DNA from: an uncultured Eubacteriales bacterium
Lineage (GTDB): Bacteria; Bacillota; Clostridia; Oscillospirales; Acutalibacteraceae
Length of the DNA stretch: 52,564 nt
NCBI GenBank assembly: GCA_900317085.1
Contig: ONFJ01000003.1
Location: 1-52,564 of the forward strand
Reading direction: 5' to 3'
Of this stretch, positions 10,156 through 18,223 are shown piece by piece (position 1 is the stretch's first letter; each line of letters begins with the position of its first letter). A model generated the notes under the pieces. That model was not told where the DNA came from, did no database searches, and saw only the letters and a list, made by a program, of their open reading frames with translations. The position numbers were made by a program, and so were the translations under genes.

Positions 10156-10184
10156 TTGACATGGAAAGGGCTTTGTGATACTAT
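10156..10184 (+). promoter_or_regulatory. Promoter of the aromatic amino acid operon
   Basis: A consensus -35 TTGACA (10156-10161) and -10 TACTAT (10179-10184) are exactly 17 bases apart. They lie 52 bases upstream of the leader peptide start. This is the strongest-looking promoter in the window. Confidence 0.8.
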
Positions 10185-10236
10185 TCTTTCAGCATTTTTG
10201 CAAGTACGAAACCGAATTTCTGTTGGAGGGACCGTC

Positions 10237-10320
10237 ATGAACACCGTTCTCCTCACAGCTGAATACCGCTTTTACGGCTTTACCTATTACTTTGGTAAGG
10301 CTTTCGACCGGTGCGGCTGA
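10237..10320 (+). CDS. Tyr/Phe-rich leader peptide of the aromatic operon attenuator
   Basis: A 27-codon reading frame starts at an ATG six bases after GGAGGG and ends at TGA. The middle reads EYRFYGFTYYFGKAF: four Tyr and four Phe in fifteen residues, the composition expected of a leader that senses charged tRNA-Tyr and tRNA-Phe. It sits between the promoter and the DAHP synthase gene and is followed by an intrinsic terminator (10357-10388). By analogy with pheL-type leaders of other bacteria, ribosome stalling at the Tyr/Phe codons would favour read-through. The alternative RNA pairing is not fully resolved: a six-base candidate is 10298-10303 with 10357-10362, and an ACAAAAT/ATTTTGT hairpin spans 10323-10348. 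Confidence 0.8.
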   Translation: MNTVLLTAEYRFYGFTYYFGKAFDRCG

Positions 10321-10356
10321 ACACAAAATCGCGTTTCCAGAATTTTGTAGAGTATC

Positions 10357-10388
10357 AGGCCTGTAGCGGTTGCTGCGGGCCTTTCTTT
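10357..10388 (+). terminator. Attenuator terminator in the aromatic operon leader
   Basis: An 11-base-pair stem (10357-10367 with 10372-10382, including G-U pairs) with a GGTT loop is followed by TTTCTTT. It precedes the first structural gene by 37 bases and follows a Tyr/Phe-rich leader peptide, so it is an attenuator rather than an operon end. Confidence 0.8.
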
Positions 10389-10425
10389 ATGAAGAAATAT
10401 TCAGCACTTTAAAGGAGAAAAGAAC

Positions 10426-11433
10426 ATGGTCGTCATTCTGAAAAACAATCCGGACGAAGCACAGCTGCAGAGCCTCATCCACTGGCTGGAGACCAAGAAC
10501 ATCCAGGTCACCCAGTCCCTCGGAGAGTCCAACCACATCCTCGGCCTCATCGGCGATACATCGCGCATCGACATGGACCTCATCGGAGCCCTCGACATCG
10601 TCGAATCGGTGCGGCGCATCCAGGAGCCGTATAAGAAGGCCAACCGGAAGTTCCACCCGGATGACACCGTCATCTCCGTGAAGGGCACCACCATCGGCAA
10701 CGGAGAACTGGCCCTCATCGCCGGTCCCGGCGCGGTGGAGAATGAAGAGCAGATGCTGCTCATCGCCCAGGAGGTCAAGGCGGCGGGTGCCACCATCCTT
10801 CGGGGCGGCGCGTTCATCGGCCGTTCCTCCCCCTACTCCTTCCAGGGCCTCGGCAAGGAAGGTCTCGACGCGCTGGTCAAGGCAGGCGACGCCACCGGCA
10901 TGCCGGTCATCTCGGAGATCATGCGCATCTCCCAGCTCGACTACTTCAAGGACGTCGACATCATCCAGGTCGGCGCCCGCAACATGAAGAACTTCGACCT
11001 TCTGAAGGAACTCGGCAAGTCCGACAAGCCGATCCTCCTGAAGCGCGGCCTCTCCGCCACTTACGAAGAACTCCTGATGAGTGCCGAATACGTCATGTCC
11101 CAGGGCAACACGAACGTCATCCTCTGCGAGCGGGGCATCCGGACCTTCGAGACCTACACGACCAACACCTTCGACGTCTCGACCATCCCGGTCTTGAAGA
11201 GCCTCTCCCACCTGCCGGTCGTCGCGGACCCCTGCCACGCCTCCGGACGCTCCATGCTGGTGGCTCCCCTGGCAGCCGCTTCGGTCGCCGCCGGCGCCGA
11301 CGGCCTCATGATCGAAGTCCATCCGGACCCGAGCCACGCCCTGTCCGACGCCAAACAGCAGATCTCCCCCGCCGCCTTTGCGGAACTGGCGGAGACCCTG
11401 AAGACCATCCGTAACACCGTAAAACCACAGTAA
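10426..11433 (+). CDS. aroF: 3-deoxy-7-phosphoheptulonate (DAHP) synthase, type I-beta with N-terminal regulatory domain
   Basis: It condenses phosphoenolpyruvate and erythrose 4-phosphate, the first step of the shikimate pathway. The 335 residues match the Thermotoga-type enzyme: a ferredoxin-like regulatory domain (about 1-70) then a TIM barrel. Visible barrel motifs include GRSSPYSFQGLG, GARNMKNF, LLKRGLSAT, DPCHASGR (metal-ligand His), MIEVHPDP (Glu ligand) and LSDAKQQ (Asp ligand). The usual first metal-ligand Cys, in GPC-VE, is replaced: the segment reads AGPGAVEN with Gly102. The N-terminal domain suggests feedback control by Tyr or Phe. AAAGGAG precedes the ATG. It is first in a seven-gene operon. 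Confidence 0.93.
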   Translation: MVVILKNNPDEAQLQSLIHWLETKNIQVTQSLGESNHILGLIGDTSRIDMDLIGALDIVESVRRIQEPYKKANRKFHPDDTVISVKGTTIGNGELALIAGPGAVENEEQMLLIAQEVKAAGATILRGGAFIGRSSPYSFQGLGKEGLDALVKAGDATGMPVISEIMRISQLDYFKDVDIIQVGARNMKNFDLLKELGKSDKPILLKRGLSATYEELLMSAEYVMSQGNTNVILCERGIRTFETYTTNTFDVSTIPVLKSLSHLPVVADPCHASGRSMLVAPLAAASVAAGADGLMIEVHPDPSHALSDAKQQISPAAFAELAETLKTIRNTVKPQ

Positions 11434-11447
11434 AGAAGGAACGCACT

Positions 11448-12302
11448 ATGAAAACCATCCGTACCGTCGGCATCGTCGGCCTCGGCCTCATCGGAGGCTC
11501 CATGGCCCGCTCCGTGCGCAAGCACACCATCGCCAAAGTCTACGGCTACGACCTGAGCCCGGACGCCATGTCCCTCGCGGAACTCTCCGGCGCCATCGAC
11601 GGGCCCCTCACGAAGGAGACCCTGAAGGAGTGCGACCTTCTGATGATCGCCATCTTCCCGAAAGCCCTCGTTCAGTGGGTCAAAGACCACGCCGATGACA
11701 TCCCGAAGGAGACCATCTTGGTGGACCTTTGCGGCGTAAAGCGTTATATTTATAATAATGTGTCGCCCATCGCCAGAGAAAAAGGTTTCCTCTATGTGGG
11801 CGGCCACCCCATGGCGGGCAAGGAGGTCTCCGGGTTCAAAAACTCGGATGCCGAGCTCTACAAGGACGCCTCCATGATCCTCTGCCCCGATGACACTGCG
11901 GACATCGACGACCTCGACACCCTCAAGGCGTTCTACCTGTCCCTCGGCTTCGGTGAAGTCGTCTTCTCGACGCCCGAAGAGCATGACCGGATCATCGCCT
12001 ACACGTCCCAGCTGGCCCACGCGGCCTCCAGTGCCTACATCAAGTCCCCGACCTCCCGTCAGCGGATGGGCTTCACGGCCGGCTCCTACAAGGACATGAC
12101 CCGTGTCGCCCGACTGGACCCCGAAATGTGGACCCAGCTCTTCATGGTGAACCGGGAAAACATGATCGAAGAGCTCCAGGAACTGGTCGACAACCTGACC
12201 GGATACCTCGACGCCCTGAAGGCGGACGACGCCGAACAGCTGAAGAAGCTCTTCGAAGAGGGCCGCGACCTCAAGGTCACCGAGCCCATTGAAAACTGCT
12301 GA
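11448..12302 (+). CDS. tyrA: Prephenate dehydrogenase
   Basis: It oxidatively decarboxylates prephenate to 4-hydroxyphenylpyruvate, the tyrosine branch. The 284 residues begin with an NAD-binding fold, GIVGLGLIGGSMA (about 8-20), with Asp after the second strand (YGYDLS), which favours NAD+. GGHPMAGKE and the active-site His in TSQLAHAASS are visible. No C-terminal ACT domain is present, so allosteric control by tyrosine is probably weak or absent, consistent with control at the leader. It starts 14 bases after the DAHP synthase stop, with AAGGAA upstream. Confidence 0.93.
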   Translation: MKTIRTVGIVGLGLIGGSMARSVRKHTIAKVYGYDLSPDAMSLAELSGAIDGPLTKETLKECDLLMIAIFPKALVQWVKDHADDIPKETILVDLCGVKRYIYNNVSPIAREKGFLYVGGHPMAGKEVSGFKNSDAELYKDASMILCPDDTADIDDLDTLKAFYLSLGFGEVVFSTPEEHDRIIAYTSQLAHAASSAYIKSPTSRQRMGFTAGSYKDMTRVARLDPEMWTQLFMVNRENMIEELQELVDNLTGYLDALKADDAEQLKKLFEEGRDLKVTEPIENC

Positions 12303-12330: not shown

Positions 12331-13407
12331 ATGAGCACCAAGACCATACACGTAACGGCCTCCCGGGACTACGATGTCCTCATCGGGAGACGCCTCATGG
12401 AAAACACCGGCAAGCTGGTGAAAGAAGTCCACGAGCCCTGTAAAGTCGCTGTCGTCTCGGACAGCAATGTGGCGCCCCTGTACATGAAGACCGTACGGGA
12501 GTCCCTCGAGAAGGAAGGCTTTGAGACCGTCCAGTTCGTCTTCCCCGCCGGAGAGTCCTCCAAGACCCTCGACGTCATGGGCGCCGTCCTGAATTTCTGC
12601 GCCGGGCAACGCCTCACCCGCACCGACCTGTTCGTCGCCCTCGGCGGCGGCGTCACCGGCGACCTGACCGGCTTCGCGGCGGCCTCCTTCCTGCGGGGCG
12701 TCGACTACGTCCAGATGCCGACCTCTCTGCTGGCAGCCGTGGACTCCTCCGTCGGCGGCAAGACCGCGGTGGACATCCCCTCGGGCAAGAACCTCGTCGG
12801 CGCGTTCAAGCAGCCCCTTCGGGTCATCTGCGACATCGACGCCTTCGAGACCCTGCCGGACGTCGTCTTCCATGACGGCTGTGCCGAGTGCATCAAGTAC
12901 GGAGTGCTCGAGAGCCCCCGCCTCCTTCAGATCTTCTCGGAGGGCTCGGACGCTGTCAGGGCGAACATCGCCGACGTGGTCGCCGAAAGCGTGCAGATCA
13001 AAGCGAACTATGTCGCGAACGATGAGTTCGACACCGGTGTCCGCCGCTACCTGAACCTCGGCCACACCATCGGCCACGCCATCGAGCGCAGCGCGAAGTA
13101 CCGTCTCATGCACGGCCACTGCGTCGCCATCGGCATGGTCATGATCAGCCGGGCCGGCGAAGCCCTCGGCATCACCGAGGCCGGCACCACGGAGAAACTC
13201 ATCGCCATCTGTGAACAGAACAGCCTCCCCGTCTCCTGCGACTTCTCCACGAAGACCCTGCTCGACGGCGCGCTGTCCGATAAAAAACGCATGGGCGGGC
13301 GCATCGCCCTCATCATCCCCGAGAAACTCGGGAAATGCATGACCCATACCGTTCCGGTCGACGAACTGGAACACATCATCGACCTCGGAAAGGAGACGTC
13401 CGTTTGA
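12331..13407 (+). CDS. aroB: 3-dehydroquinate synthase
   Basis: It converts DAHP to 3-dehydroquinate using NAD+ and a divalent metal. The 358 residues are full length. The family signatures are clear: GGGVTGDLTGFAAA, then LRGVDYVQMPTSLLAAVDSSVGG split across the nucleotide and substrate sites, KNLVGAF, and the metal-binding histidine segment LGHTIGHAIE. An AGAAAGGGTG segment precedes the ATG. The 3' end overlaps the aroA start by four bases (TTGA), indicating coupled translation. Confidence 0.96.
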   Translation: MSTKTIHVTASRDYDVLIGRRLMENTGKLVKEVHEPCKVAVVSDSNVAPLYMKTVRESLEKEGFETVQFVFPAGESSKTLDVMGAVLNFCAGQRLTRTDLFVALGGGVTGDLTGFAAASFLRGVDYVQMPTSLLAAVDSSVGGKTAVDIPSGKNLVGAFKQPLRVICDIDAFETLPDVVFHDGCAECIKYGVLESPRLLQIFSEGSDAVRANIADVVAESVQIKANYVANDEFDTGVRRYLNLGHTIGHAIERSAKYRLMHGHCVAIGMVMISRAGEALGITEAGTTEKLIAICEQNSLPVSCDFSTKTLLDGALSDKKRMGGRIALIIPEKLGKCMTHTVPVDELEHIIDLGKETSV

Positions 13408-14702
13408 ACGTCCGACTCAGTCCCGCGAGCCTCTCAGGCACCGTCCAAACCATCGCATCGAAAAGCGATGTCCACCGCCTCCTGTTCTGCGCAGCCCAGG
13501 CAGACGGCCCTGTCACCATCGAAATGAACAGCACATCGCCCCTCTCGGACGACATCTTAACGACGGCCTTCGTCATCAAGGCCCTCGGAGCCGATGTCCG
13601 GAAAGAGGACGGGCGATTCACGGTCACCCCCTCGAACGTCGCGCCGAAGGCACCCATCTTCGACTGCCGGGAGAGCGGTTCGACCCTGCGCTTCCTGCTG
13701 CCCGTCGCGGCGGCACACTGCGACGAGCCCTCCTTCACGGGCAGCGGCCGTCTGCCGGAGCGCCCCGTCGAAGACCTCCTGAACGTGCTGAAGGCCCGGG
13801 GCATCTCGGTCTCCGCGGACAAACTCCCCTTCTCCTTCACAGGACGCCTGCAAAGCGGCGCCTTCGAACTGCCCGGCAACGTGAGTTCCCAGTACATCAC
13901 GGGACTCCTGCTGGCGCTCCCGGCACTGGATGGTGACTCCGAGATCCGTCTCACGTCTCCCCTCCAGTCCGCTTCTTATGTGAACATCACGCTCCACGCG
14001 CTGAGCCGCTTCGGCATCCGCACGAGCATCCTGCCCCGGGGCTATCTCGTCCCCGGCAACCAGACCTTCCAGAGCCCCGGCACCATCGTGGCCGACGGCG
14101 ACTGGTCCAACGCGGGGTACTTCTTCGCGGCGGGCGCGCTGAGCGAGACCCCCGTCTCCATCGCCGGCCTCACCCCGGACTCTCCCCAGGGAGACAAGTC
14201 CATCGTCGGCATCCTGAACAACCGGATGGGCGCGCCCATCTCCAAAGTCCAGGAGGAAGACGGCACTTACACCTACACGGTCACCCCGGCCGAAACGCTT
14301 CGGGCCTGTGACCTCGACGTCACCAACATCCCGGACGCCTTCCCGGTGCTCGCGGTGCTCGCAGCCTTCGCGCAGGGCCGCACGAGTTTCATCGGGTGTG
14401 AACGGCTCCGGTTCAAGGAGAGCGACCGCATCGCCTCTGTCATCGCCATGCTGGAAGCCCTCGGCGGCAAGGCCGAGGAGGACGGCGACGGCGTCATCGT
14501 CTACGGCGCGGATGAGACCGGCGGTCTCACCGGCGGCACCGTCGACGCCTGCGGCGACCACCGGATCGTCATGGCGGCGGCCATCGCGGCCCTGCGCTGC
14601 ACCGGTGATGTGACCATCACCGGCGCGGAAGCCGTCCGGAAATCCTACCCGTCCTTTTTCGACGAATACAAAGCCTTAGGAGGAATCGTCAATGTCATCT
14701 AA
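13404..14702 (+). CDS. aroA: 3-phosphoshikimate 1-carboxyvinyltransferase (EPSP synthase)
   Basis: It transfers the enolpyruvyl group of PEP to shikimate 3-phosphate. The start is the TTG that overlaps the aroB stop, with GGAAAGGAGA upstream, giving 432 residues. Motifs seen are SKSDVHRLLF, RESGSTLRFLLP, GRLPERPVEDLL, SSQYITGLLLALP, DGDWSNAGYFF, RLRFKESDRI and GDHRIVMAAA, covering both inside-out barrel domains. The GSTLR form differs somewhat from the common GNSGTT-type motif. The 3' end overlaps aroC by 11 bases, with aroC's AGGAGG inside aroA. Confidence 0.95.
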   Translation: MNVRLSPASLSGTVQTIASKSDVHRLLFCAAQADGPVTIEMNSTSPLSDDILTTAFVIKALGADVRKEDGRFTVTPSNVAPKAPIFDCRESGSTLRFLLPVAAAHCDEPSFTGSGRLPERPVEDLLNVLKARGISVSADKLPFSFTGRLQSGAFELPGNVSSQYITGLLLALPALDGDSEIRLTSPLQSASYVNITLHALSRFGIRTSILPRGYLVPGNQTFQSPGTIVADGDWSNAGYFFAAGALSETPVSIAGLTPDSPQGDKSIVGILNNRMGAPISKVQEEDGTYTYTVTPAETLRACDLDVTNIPDAFPVLAVLAAFAQGRTSFIGCERLRFKESDRIASVIAMLEALGGKAEEDGDGVIVYGADETGGLTGGTVDACGDHRIVMAAAIAALRCTGDVTITGAEAVRKSYPSFFDEYKALGGIVNVI

Positions 14703-15792
14703 TATCGGAAACGCGCTGAACATTTCGGTCTTCGGCCAGTCCCACGGCAAAGCGATCGGTGTCACCATCGACGGACTGCCCGCCGGAGAACATATCGATG
14801 TGAACGAACTCCAGGCCTTTCTGGACCGCCGTCGTCCCGGCACCAGTGAGCTCACGACCGCCCGCAACGAGACGGACTGTCCGGACTTCCTCGCCGGTGT
14901 CACCGAAGACGAAGACGGGAACCTCACGACCTGCGGCTTCCCTCTGGCAGCCGTCATCAAGAACAAAGACCAGCACTCTTCGGACTACTCCGAACTCTTA
15001 ACGAAACCCCGTCCCTCCCACGCGGACTACACCGCGTTCCTCAAGTACGGCGAGGCCCGGGACATGCGGGGCGGCGGGCACTTCTCCGGCCGTCTCACGG
15101 CACCGCTGTGCGTCGCCGGCGGCATCTGCCTGCAGATGCTCGAGCGCCGTGGCATCCTCATCGGTGCCCACCTCGAACGGGTCGGTGAAGTCCAGGACGA
15201 GCCCTTCCCGCTCTACCCGGACAAAGCCCTCTTCGAGGACATCCGCAGCCGCAACCCCGCCACCATCGACCCCTCCGCGAGCCTCAAGATGATCGATGAG
15301 ATCACCAACGCGAAGTTCGACAACGACTCCGTCGGCGGCATCGTCGAGTGCGCCGTCACCGGCTTCCCGGCCGGCGTGGGCGGTCCCCTCTTCGACGGCA
15401 TCGAGAGCGAACTGGCGAAAGCCCTCTTTGGCATCCCCGCCGTCAAGGGCGTCGAGTTCGGCAACGGGTTCACCTGTGCGGAACTGCGCGGTTCCCAGAA
15501 CAACGACGCGTTCATCGCCGAAGACGGCACGGTCAAGACCGAGACGAACCGCTCCGGCGGCATCCAGGGAGGCATCTCCAACGGCATGCCCCTCCTGTTC
15601 CGGGTCGCTGTGAAACCCACACCGTCCATCGCCAAAACCCAGAAGACCGTCGACCTCGAGACCATGGAGGAGACCGAACTCTCCATCCACGGGCGCCACG
15701 ACCCCTGCATCGCCGTACGGGCGGTCCCCGTCGTGGAAGCGGTCGCCGCCATCGCGCTCACGGACCTTCTGCTGAGCGAGAACAAACTGTAA
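14692..15792 (+). CDS. aroC: Chorismate synthase
   Basis: It eliminates phosphate from EPSP to give chorismate, using reduced FMN. The 366 residues show the family signatures FGQSHGKAIGVT, RRRPGTSELTTARNETD, GGGHFSGRLTA, SVGGIVECAV and SGGIQGGISNG. AGGAGG precedes the ATG, which lies inside the end of aroA, so translation is coupled. It stands 30 bases before pheA in the same operon. Confidence 0.96.
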   Translation: MSSNIGNALNISVFGQSHGKAIGVTIDGLPAGEHIDVNELQAFLDRRRPGTSELTTARNETDCPDFLAGVTEDEDGNLTTCGFPLAAVIKNKDQHSSDYSELLTKPRPSHADYTAFLKYGEARDMRGGGHFSGRLTAPLCVAGGICLQMLERRGILIGAHLERVGEVQDEPFPLYPDKALFEDIRSRNPATIDPSASLKMIDEITNAKFDNDSVGGIVECAVTGFPAGVGGPLFDGIESELAKALFGIPAVKGVEFGNGFTCAELRGSQNNDAFIAEDGTVKTETNRSGGIQGGISNGMPLLFRVAVKPTPSIAKTQKTVDLETMEETELSIHGRHDPCIAVRAVPVVEAVAAIALTDLLLSENKL

Positions 15793-15822
15793 GAACAATC
15801 CTTTAGGAATCGGGTGAGTCCC

Positions 15823-16980
15823 ATGAGCACAGACAAGAAAGACCTCGCGGCACTGCGGGAAGAGATCAACGGCATCAACGACGAGATGCTGCAGCTGTTC
15901 CTGCGCCGTATGCAGGTGTCCGGCGAGATCGCCGACTATAAAAAAGAACACGACATGCCCATCATGCACAAGGACCGCGAACGGGAGATCCTCGCGGAAG
16001 TCGAGGCGAAGTCCGGAGACATGGAACTCTATGCCCACCGCTTCTTCTCGAACATCATGGAGCTGTCCCGCGCTTACCAGAACAGTCTGACGGCCCGGCA
16101 CACGCCCCTCATCGACATGATCAAGGAGTCCCGCCTCCCCGCCGACGCCACGTTCCCCCAGAACGGCATCATCGGGGTCTCCGGCGTGGAGGGTGCCTAT
16201 GCCCAGCAGGCGGCGGACACCATGTTCCCGAGAGGCACGGTCATGTTCATGAAGAACTTCGAAGCCGTCTTCGATGCCCTCGAGAACGGCCTCTGCCAGT
16301 ACGGCATCGTCCCGGTCGAGAACTCCTCCTACGGTTCCGTCAAGGACGTCTACAAGCTCCTGCAGGAACGGGACGTGTACATCACCCGCAGCATCCGGAT
16401 CAACGTCCGTCATGAGCTGCTGGCGAACCCCGGTACGAAATTGTCCCAGATTAAGGAGATCTACTCCCACGAACAGGCCATCGGCCAGTGCGAGCAGTTC
16501 CTGAAGAGCCTGCCCGACAGCGTGAAGATCATCCCGGTCACCAACACCGCGGCCGCCGCCAAAATGGTCGCGAACTCCGACCGCAACGACGTCGCCGCCA
16601 TCGCCTCCCACGAGGCGGGCCAGCTCTACAACCTGAAAACGGTCCGGGACAACATCATGGACAGCGCCAACAACTACACCCGCTTCATCTCCATCCGGAC
16701 GAAGCCCGCCGTGTACCCCGGCGCCAACCGCATCTCCCTCATCTTCACGACCGAGCACAAGCCCGGCGCCCTTTATGACATCATCTCCATGGTGTCCGCG
16801 CTGGACCTCAACATGGTCAAGCTGGAAAGTGCCCCGCTGGTGGGTTCCGACTTCGAGTTCGCGTTCTACATGGACCTCCACGCCTCCGTCTGGGACGACG
16901 GCGTCCTCGCCATGCTCGCCTACCTCGAGCGGACCTGCGACAGCTTCAAGTACCTTGGAAACTACCCGGAGGTCAGCTGA
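15823..16980 (+). CDS. pheA: Bifunctional chorismate mutase / prephenate dehydratase (P-protein)
   Basis: It converts chorismate to prephenate and then to phenylpyruvate, the phenylalanine branch. The start is the ATG after GGGTGAG; a GTG nine bases upstream is in frame but less likely. The 385 residues contain an AroQ-type mutase domain (about 1-90, LREEINGINDEMLQLFLRRM), a dehydratase domain (about 110-290) with the catalytic NNYTRFISI, and a C-terminal ACT domain (about 298-375). In the ACT domain the usual ESRP motif reads ESAP (residues 335-338), losing the Arg associated with Phe binding, so feedback may differ. Its stop lies one base before the next start. Confidence 0.95.
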   Translation: MSTDKKDLAALREEINGINDEMLQLFLRRMQVSGEIADYKKEHDMPIMHKDREREILAEVEAKSGDMELYAHRFFSNIMELSRAYQNSLTARHTPLIDMIKESRLPADATFPQNGIIGVSGVEGAYAQQAADTMFPRGTVMFMKNFEAVFDALENGLCQYGIVPVENSSYGSVKDVYKLLQERDVYITRSIRINVRHELLANPGTKLSQIKEIYSHEQAIGQCEQFLKSLPDSVKIIPVTNTAAAAKMVANSDRNDVAAIASHEAGQLYNLKTVRDNIMDSANNYTRFISIRTKPAVYPGANRISLIFTTEHKPGALYDIISMVSALDLNMVKLESAPLVGSDFEFAFYMDLHASVWDDGVLAMLAYLERTCDSFKYLGNYPEVS

Positions 16981-16981
16981 C

Positions 16982-18223
16982 ATGAGCGACATCTACGGCC
17001 TTCTCGGGGAACACCTCGGCCACAGCTTCTCCCCCTTCCTGCACCACGCCCTCGGCGATGAAGCCTACGCGCTTTACGAACTGGCACCGCAGGAACTGGA
17101 AGCCTTCGTGCGTCAGGAGAACGTCCGGGGACTCAACGTGACCATCCCCTACAAACAGACCGTCCTGCCCTTCGTCGACGAACTCTCGCCGGCGGTGGAA
17201 GCCATCGGAGCGGCGAACACGCTGTACCGCAGAGACGGGAAGCTCATCGCCGAGAACACCGACGTCCTCGGGTTCCTGTACCTGCTCGAGTCTAACGGCA
17301 TCGACGTCACCGGCAAAAAGGTGCTGGTCTTCGGTAACGGAGGCGCCTGCAAAGCGGTCCTCGAGGCCCTGCGCCGCAAAGAAGCCGGTGAAGTCCTGGT
17401 CGTCAGCAGACGGGGTGGCGATCTGCCTCTCATCTCCTACGACGACCTGCCGCGCCATTACGACGCCGACGTCATCGTCAACACGACGCCCGTCGGCATG
17501 TACCCCGACAACCTCTCGTCCATCACGGACCTCACGCCCTTCGAGGGCCTGTCCGGTGTGGTGGACATCGTCTATAACCCCCTGCGCACCGGCCTGCTGC
17601 TGCAGGCGGAGGCGCTCGGCATCCCCCACGCCAACGGCCTCGGGATGCTCGTCGCCCAGGCGGTCCGCGCCCACGAGTTCTTCTTCGACACGAAGGTCGA
17701 TGACAAAGTCATCGAAGACCTGACCGCCGAACTCACCCGAAACGCCACGAACCTCGTCCTCATCGGCATGCCCGGCAGTGGCAAGTCCTCCGTCGCGAAA
17801 CTCCTCGCGGAGCAGACCGGCAGAGACGTCGTCGAACTCGACGGCGCCATCGCCGAAGCGGCCGGGAAATCCATTCCGGAGATCTTCGCGGAGGACGGCG
17901 AAGACGTGTTTCGCGACATCGAGTCGTCGTGCATCGCCAAAGCGGGTGCCCAAAACGGTGTCATCCTGTCCCTCGGCGGCGGTGCGGTCACGAAAGAGCG
18001 CAACTACCTGCCCCTGCACCAGAACGGGCGCATCTACTGCCTGAAACGGGACCTCTCCCTTCTCCCCATGGACGGACGGCCCCTGTCGAAGGACCTCGAC
18101 ACGCTGAAGGCCATGGAACAGACGAGGGACCCGATGTACGCTCGTTTCGCCGACGTCACCATCGAGAACGACGGCACACTGGAAGAGGCCGCCGGGAAGA
18201 TCCTGAGAGACTTTGGTCTTTAA
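16982..18223 (+). CDS. aroE-aroK: Fused shikimate dehydrogenase / shikimate kinase
   Basis: The 413-residue protein joins two shikimate steps. Residues 1 to about 255 are shikimate dehydrogenase: GHSFSPFLHHA, LNVTIPYKQTVLP (catalytic Lys), GAANTLYR, FGNGGACKA for NADP and NTTPVGM. Residues from about 257 on are shikimate kinase: Walker A GMPGSGKSS, LSLGGGAV, the lid Arg in DGRPLSK and TRDPMYARF. The usual DxD near the first Asp reads ELDGAI. The fusion is in frame with no internal start signal. It reduces 3-dehydroshikimate and phosphorylates shikimate in one polypeptide. It is last in the operon, and a terminator follows. Confidence 0.95.
   Translation: MSDIYGLLGEHLGHSFSPFLHHALGDEAYALYELAPQELEAFVRQENVRGLNVTIPYKQTVLPFVDELSPAVEAIGAANTLYRRDGKLIAENTDVLGFLYLLESNGIDVTGKKVLVFGNGGACKAVLEALRRKEAGEVLVVSRRGGDLPLISYDDLPRHYDADVIVNTTPVGMYPDNLSSITDLTPFEGLSGVVDIVYNPLRTGLLLQAEALGIPHANGLGMLVAQAVRAHEFFFDTKVDDKVIEDLTAELTRNATNLVLIGMPGSGKSSVAKLLAEQTGRDVVELDGAIAEAAGKSIPEIFAEDGEDVFRDIESSCIAKAGAQNGVILSLGGGAVTKERNYLPLHQNGRIYCLKRDLSLLPMDGRPLSKDLDTLKAMEQTRDPMYARFADVTIENDGTLEEAAGKILRDFGL

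Follow-up and report, generated by a model that had tools for sequence, protein, structure and literature searches.

The stretch of DNA analysed here (the window, 52,564 nucleotides from an uncultured Eubacteriales bacterium) contains an operon for aromatic amino acid biosynthesis with the gene order aroF-tyrA-aroB-aroA-aroC-pheA-aroE/K (Table 1). As tyrA and pheA are both present, the operon includes the Tyr branch as well as the Phe branch. Its last frame joins a shikimate dehydrogenase and a shikimate kinase domain, and aroE-aroK protein matches come after pheA in many of 40 relatives.

Table 1. Features of the aromatic amino acid locus, in window positions
Feature	Position	Strand	Basis and remarks
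Sigma-70-like promoter, TTGACA-17-TACTAT	10156..10184	+	10/12 consensus matches; extended -10 (TG)
Leader Shine-Dalgarno, GGAGGG	10225..10230	+	Sequence
Leader peptide gene, MNTVLLTAEYRFYGFTYYFGKAFDRCG	10237..10320	+	ATG 10237, TGA 10318-10320, 27 codons
Protector hairpin (1:2)	10256..10319	+	Predicted fold; 10256-10268 with about 10309-10319
Antiterminator (2:3)	10306..10371	+	Predicted fold; arms 10306-10330 and 10340-10371, about -20 kcal/mol
Intrinsic terminator (3:4)	10357..10382	+	11 pairs, -20.0 kcal/mol; T-rich tail TTTCTTTATG from 10383
aroF Shine-Dalgarno, AAAGGAG	10411..10417	+	Sequence; outside the terminator hairpin
aroF, DAHP synthase, B. subtilis type, first gene of the operon	10426..11433	+	NF006421 and TIGR01361, over cut-off
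tyrA, prephenate dehydrogenase family	11448..12302	+	Best NCBIfam matches below curated cut-off
aroB, 3-dehydroquinate synthase	12331..13407	+	NCBIfam
aroA, EPSP synthase	13335..14702	+	NCBIfam; longest frame, domain begins at residue 35
aroC, chorismate synthase	14692..15792	+	NCBIfam
pheA, chorismate mutase / prephenate dehydratase	15814..16980	+	Best NCBIfam matches below curated cut-off
aroE-aroK fusion	16775..18223	+	NCBIfam matches below curated cut-offs; longest frame, first domain from about residue 72

The region ahead of aroF (10156-10426) has the anatomy of a leader-peptide attenuator. A short frame with a ribosome-binding site lies between the promoter and the first gene, codons for the products of the operon are clustered within it, and an intrinsic terminator separates it from aroF. 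The initial annotation had described a 27-codon leader with its own Shine-Dalgarno sequence, eight Tyr/Phe codons within fifteen, and an 11-pair terminator with a T-rich tail, and all of these were recovered, the codon cluster being slightly tighter than proposed: codons 10, 12, 13, 15, 17, 18, 19 and 23 fall within 14 codons, in a balanced mix of four Tyr and four Phe. The promoter that it had placed ahead of the leader is likewise present, and its match is weak by itself because 0.6 sites of this grade are expected by chance in an 801-base stretch, as judged by shuffling. The stop codon of the leader and the start of aroF are separated by 105 bases.

RNA folding predicts three alternative structures. 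When no ribosome is on the leader, the protector hairpin, which encloses an inner hairpin (10276-10284 paired with 10294-10302), is predicted to form. The predicted antiterminator captures 8 of the 11 paired positions of the terminator 5' arm and would thus be mutually exclusive with the terminator, an element that adds to the initial annotation. In folds that count the RNA as free once it is 15 bases past the start of the A-site codon, the antiterminator (10306-10371) forms when the A-site is at codon 10, 12, 13, 15, 17, 18 or 19, and the unoccupied RNA as far as the terminator loop then has energies of -19.9 to -24.5 kcal/mol. With the A-site on codon 23 the fold falls to -7.0 kcal/mol and the antiterminator hairpin is lost, so that this codon is probably an unproductive stall site. 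With the ribosome at the stop codon, the antiterminator is absent and the terminator forms. In these predictions, stalling at control codons releases a structure that is incompatible with the terminator. The recurring GKA codons (GGTAAGGCT) had been considered as an arm of the antiterminator; folding places that arm just downstream, at 10306-10330.

This arrangement is best accounted for by ribosome-mediated transcription attenuation, with Phe and Tyr both sensed through tRNA charging, a reading that we regard as very probable. When both amino acids are plentiful, the ribosome would reach the stop codon at 10318 and mask the antiterminator's 5' arm, which starts at 10306, so that the terminator at 10357-10382 would end transcription ahead of aroF. 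When either is short, the ribosome would stall on one of codons 10-19 and open the protector hairpin, leaving 10306-10371 free to fold as the antiterminator, and the operon would be transcribed. With the Tyr and Phe codons interleaved, a shortage of either amino acid would suffice, and such an OR gate fits an operon that makes both products. We infer from this scheme a starvation response and a coupling of transcription to translation. The RNA polymerase of Bacillus subtilis has been reported to outrun its ribosomes (PMC7858274), which, if it were valid here, would defeat such a switch.

Conservation was examined upstream of DAHP synthase genes in 156 loci of the same order (the window, 55 returned loci and 100 taken from the top of the match list downwards) and in 68 loci from other orders of the class (28 returned and 40 picked from the match list). 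A leader was defined as a frame with a Shine-Dalgarno sequence and at least 5 Tyr/Phe in 15 residues. By this definition leaders precede 113 of the 156 order loci, the window included, and 48 of the 68 class loci, the other 20 having none; picking from lists favours better-scoring matches in both samples. The controls for the order set gave 31 of 780 dinucleotide shuffles and 2 of 156 reverse complements. A stricter threshold of at least 6 Tyr/Phe in 15, again with a Shine-Dalgarno sequence, retains 107 of the 156 loci (controls 7/780 and 0/156), and the cluster holds Tyr and Phe together in 104 of these 107. Two further order loci (L010, L184) have a Tyr/Phe-rich open frame outside the definitions. 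Among the 43 order loci that are leaderless by definition, a T-box-like motif occurs in 13, and the other 30 show neither leader nor motif; 19 of the 43 follow shortly after another long frame, perhaps inside an operon.

Within the genus, a DAHP synthase gene was found in three of seven relatives. The leader of G003 is nearly identical and a like promoter is kept, and that of G006 is present but diverged; G001, the third, is described below. The initial annotation had named a lack of conservation of the leader frame or its Tyr/Phe codons in relatives as evidence against its reading, and the comparison, which also took in the terminator, found conservation instead. A side group of leaders (L174, L178, L181, L189, L022 and L032) has the form RFTGF-YPRYFMAWDF-AC, most of them with Trp codons, so that a Trp input is possible at these loci on sequence grounds. 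One of them, L022, has an apparent second terminator-like hairpin inside the leader frame, as seen by eye.

The terminator is conserved together with the frame. A U-tailed hairpin of -15 kcal/mol or stronger lies between leader and aroF in 102 of the 113 order loci with leaders and in 15 of 226 shuffles. Only strong hairpins were counted, since weak ones turn up in shuffles too; the terminator finder reports some hairpin behind all 113 leaders, the weakest being -6.8 kcal/mol (L191). Leader and hairpin, at these frequencies, support the Tyr/Phe-sensing attenuator that had been proposed for the window. Between the stalled ribosome and the terminator loop, the RNA tends to fold more stably than when its upstream part is shuffled (mean z -1.14 over the 113 loci, with 58 below -1 and one above +1), and the window itself, at -0.78, is weaker than this average. 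An action of the leader on the translation of aroF, by coupling or reinitiation and with an incidental hairpin, is very improbable. Leader genes near structural genes have been proposed to raise translation via reinitiation (PMC4833913), but here the 105 bases between the two frames, the strong hairpin that intervenes far more often than in shuffles, and an aroF Shine-Dalgarno site of its own outside that hairpin all speak against it.

T-box riboswitches (RF00230) resemble the proposed attenuator in that they sense tRNA charging and end in a terminator. They differ in reading the tRNA itself, with no ribosome involved and a single tRNA for each element; Bacillota are commonly described as T-box users. 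A scan of the window with Rfam 15 gave no family at its gathering score, T-box and amino acid leaders included. A permissive scan (E up to 10) gave five matches in the window, all far below gathering scores, and the sole amino acid leader among them was Thr_leader, with 14.8 bits against the 55 needed. Elsewhere in the genome there are five T-box matches, before ilvB, pheS, trpE, thrS and ileS, of which those at ilvB and pheS pass the curated cut-off and the other three are below it. From these matches Phe appears to be read in two ways in this genome: a T-box would serve pheS, and a leader peptide the biosynthetic operon. The roughly 600 bases upstream of hisG, inspected by eye, contain coding sequence only.

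In the order, the aroF copies of family f13 (L218, L223, L225, L227, L230, L232-L234 and L238-L240), most of them in two-copy genomes, have by motif match a T-box-like motif in place of the leader. This points to an apparent exchange of sensors, between leader and T-box, within one order. These observations also bear on the idea that another ligand or protein (a T-box, a riboswitch or an RNA-binding protein) controls the terminator and that the frame is a passenger. The T-box matches before other genes of this genome and the T-box-like motif at the 13 leaderless aroF copies would be in keeping with it, but the outcome of both Rfam scans of the window is against it, as is the fact that the leader frame itself makes up much of the RNA before the terminator. 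This alternative is less probable still than an effect on translation.

Constraint can also be seen at the codon level. In 17 non-overlapping pairs of similar leaders, 20 single-base changes fall in Tyr/Phe codons, of which 13 are silent, four are Tyr-Phe swaps and three give another residue; in the remaining codons of the same pairs, 22 of 56 single-base changes are silent. Eight more Tyr/Phe codons differ by two or three bases, three of them as Tyr-Phe swaps and five with other residues.

The mix of the two codons follows the genes downstream. The idea arose from the list of leaders and was tested on operons fetched afterwards. Operon content was checked for 61 loci (the window, 40 and 20), of which 57 could be classified; L358 and L364 were left out for want of a leader, and L362 and L366 because they have neither tyrA nor pheA. 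The mean Tyr share of the cluster, Tyr/(Tyr+Phe), is 0.74 where tyrA without pheA lies downstream (n=15, including L354 and L363, whose operons reach contig ends), 0.45 where both genes do (n=29) and 0.29 where pheA does without tyrA (n=13). The two single-gene groups differ over loci with p = 1.6e-5 (Mann-Whitney). Related loci are not independent, and a family-level test, which offsets kinship in part, gives p = 0.0013 for the same comparison with hand-assigned families; family means range over 0.56-0.89 for tyrA only (7 families), 0.33-0.62 for both (17) and 0.26-0.40 for pheA only (5). Paired leaders within one genome agree with this trend. In seven of seven such genomes (G116, G167, G088, G206, G196, G147 and G217, from three families), the aroF-tyrA leader is more Tyr-rich than the leader of the operon with pheA and without tyrA. 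At L341, where pheA directly follows aroF, the cluster consists of seven Phe and no Tyr.

There are exceptions. Three loci without tyrA are nevertheless Tyr-rich (L324, 0.57; L325, 0.50; L326, 0.62), L370 has tyrA only with a Tyr share of 0.40, and L322 has both genes with a share of 0.17. The L326 locus, in G193, contains tandem aroF genes, with a Tyr-rich leader on the first copy and a Phe-rich one on the second; aroB-aroA-aroC-pheA lie downstream of the tandem and no tyrA was seen in the stretch. The relation of Tyr share to tyrA and pheA content is the strongest evidence that the leader would read Tyr and Phe themselves, and the balanced mix in the window fits its double product. The least probable alternative is that the frame specifies a small peptide with a function of its own, such as a membrane peptide, and that the aromatic residues serve that role. 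This agrees with the mostly silent changes of Tyr/Phe codons between close relatives, but it is opposed by the wide variation in leader length and in the residues flanking the cluster, by a Tyr versus Phe share that tracks the downstream enzymes, and by the strong U-tailed hairpin that usually comes after the leader.

Common though it is in the sampled class, the leader is not universal in Bacillota. The initial annotation had regarded it as unusual in a probable Bacillota genome. This did not hold within the class, where 161 of the 224 sampled loci have leaders, though named Bacillota records whose enzymes are less similar are mostly leaderless. A scan of named genomes covered 80 loci, 79 of them with usable upstream sequence and 28 belonging by title to Bacillota or a subgroup. 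Only five of these 28 records (L036 and L038-L041) have a convincing leader, and their enzymes are more than 60% identical to that of the window; L036, L038 and L039 satisfy the definition of a leader, and L040 and L041 have the frame without a recognised Shine-Dalgarno sequence. L037, the deletion treated below, is a leaderless member of the 28. Upstream of the genes in 22 named Bacillota records among L042-L105, with enzymes less than 60% identical, no convincing leader was found. A T-box-like motif occurs in four of these 22, among them L098, which has a leader score of 5 and yet adjoins the motif. Five proteobacterial or deltaproteobacterial records (L065, L069, L073, L089 and L097) have Tyr/Phe-rich leaders of a different type, with Trp in four of the five and a Val-Cys-Pro motif near the end in four of the five.

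In the congener G001 (L037 / L008), leader and terminator are absent together, and the promoter and the aroF ribosome-binding site are kept. In an oriented alignment the gap runs from just past the promoter to just before the aroF Shine-Dalgarno sequence. From its extent this deletion would look like a derepressing mutation, although with a metagenome bin as the source an assembly fault is also possible.

Leader-peptide attenuation is a textbook mechanism, and attenuators for Phe, Trp and other amino acids are found in Proteobacteria. They share with the window a leader with control codons, alternative hairpins, and a biosynthetic or tRNA-charging operon downstream; phenylalanine attenuators and pheST are mentioned in the accessible part of one survey (PMC1262725). 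The window system differs from them in that two amino acids are addressed by interleaved codons, a whole shikimate-Phe-Tyr operon is led and there is no Rfam match at gathering score, and leaders of its type differ in that the codon mix shifts with operon content. A further related system is the uORFC-13-1 motif, with 24 representatives, confined to Acholeplasma aroF and environmental sequences according to the available text (PMC8632094). It also consists of a short Phe-codon frame and a terminator before DAHP synthase, and the same mechanism has been suggested for it; compared by description only, it is unlike the present leaders in being presented for phenylalanine, the accessible part of that account making no mention of Tyr codons (PMC8632094).

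In other Bacillota, His leader peptides are reported as known or predicted in bacilli, Eubacteriales and Erysipelotrichales (PMC2965389, PMC9413887), and the ilv-leu operon of Staphylococcus aureus has been described with a Leu-rich attenuator for Leu/Ile (PMC5794164). These too are cases of leader-peptide attenuation in Bacillota that in places replaces T-boxes, but as far as the excerpts consulted go they concern other amino acids and limited species groups (PMC2965389, PMC9413887, PMC5794164). A prediction from 2005 placed attenuators before tyrA/aro supraoperons, including the Thermoanaerobacter order pheA > aroA-I-beta > tyrA; these are alike in preceding aromatic operons, and the part of that report at hand gives no leader peptide or sensed amino acid (PMC1173090). 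In the accessible text of a survey of the same year, tyrosine genes were assigned to T-boxes (PMC1262725). In a literature search that covered few subscription journals, Tyr/Phe leaders ahead of DAHP synthase in Clostridia were not found described, and neither were the dual Phe/Tyr version and Tyr-biased leader peptides. The mechanism is therefore already known, and its breadth, double specificity and tuning to operon content look new.

It is proposed that ribosome-stalling leaders control aromatic biosynthesis in a large part of one Bacillota class and that their Tyr:Phe codon ratio has been evolutionarily tuned to the enzymes downstream, with Tyr-biased leaders before aroF-tyrA, Phe-biased leaders before pheA without tyrA, and balanced OR gates before both. 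On balance we favour this generalization, and hold it with less confidence than the reading of the window because of the named records that lack leaders. As a T-box reads one tRNA, a leader peptide may have gained an advantage once both branches were joined in a single operon. If the proposal is true, transcription and translation would be coupled on these leaders, contrary to the picture drawn for B. subtilis in the portion of the work available (PMC7858274), and classic attenuators this widespread in the class would point to a coupling sufficient for ribosomes to steer termination. The leaders also form a natural series, in which codon mixes can be set beside operon content, a single genome can offer paired leaders, and one congener supplies a natural deletion; through it, how sensor specificity evolves and how leader peptides and T-boxes replace one another would become directly testable.
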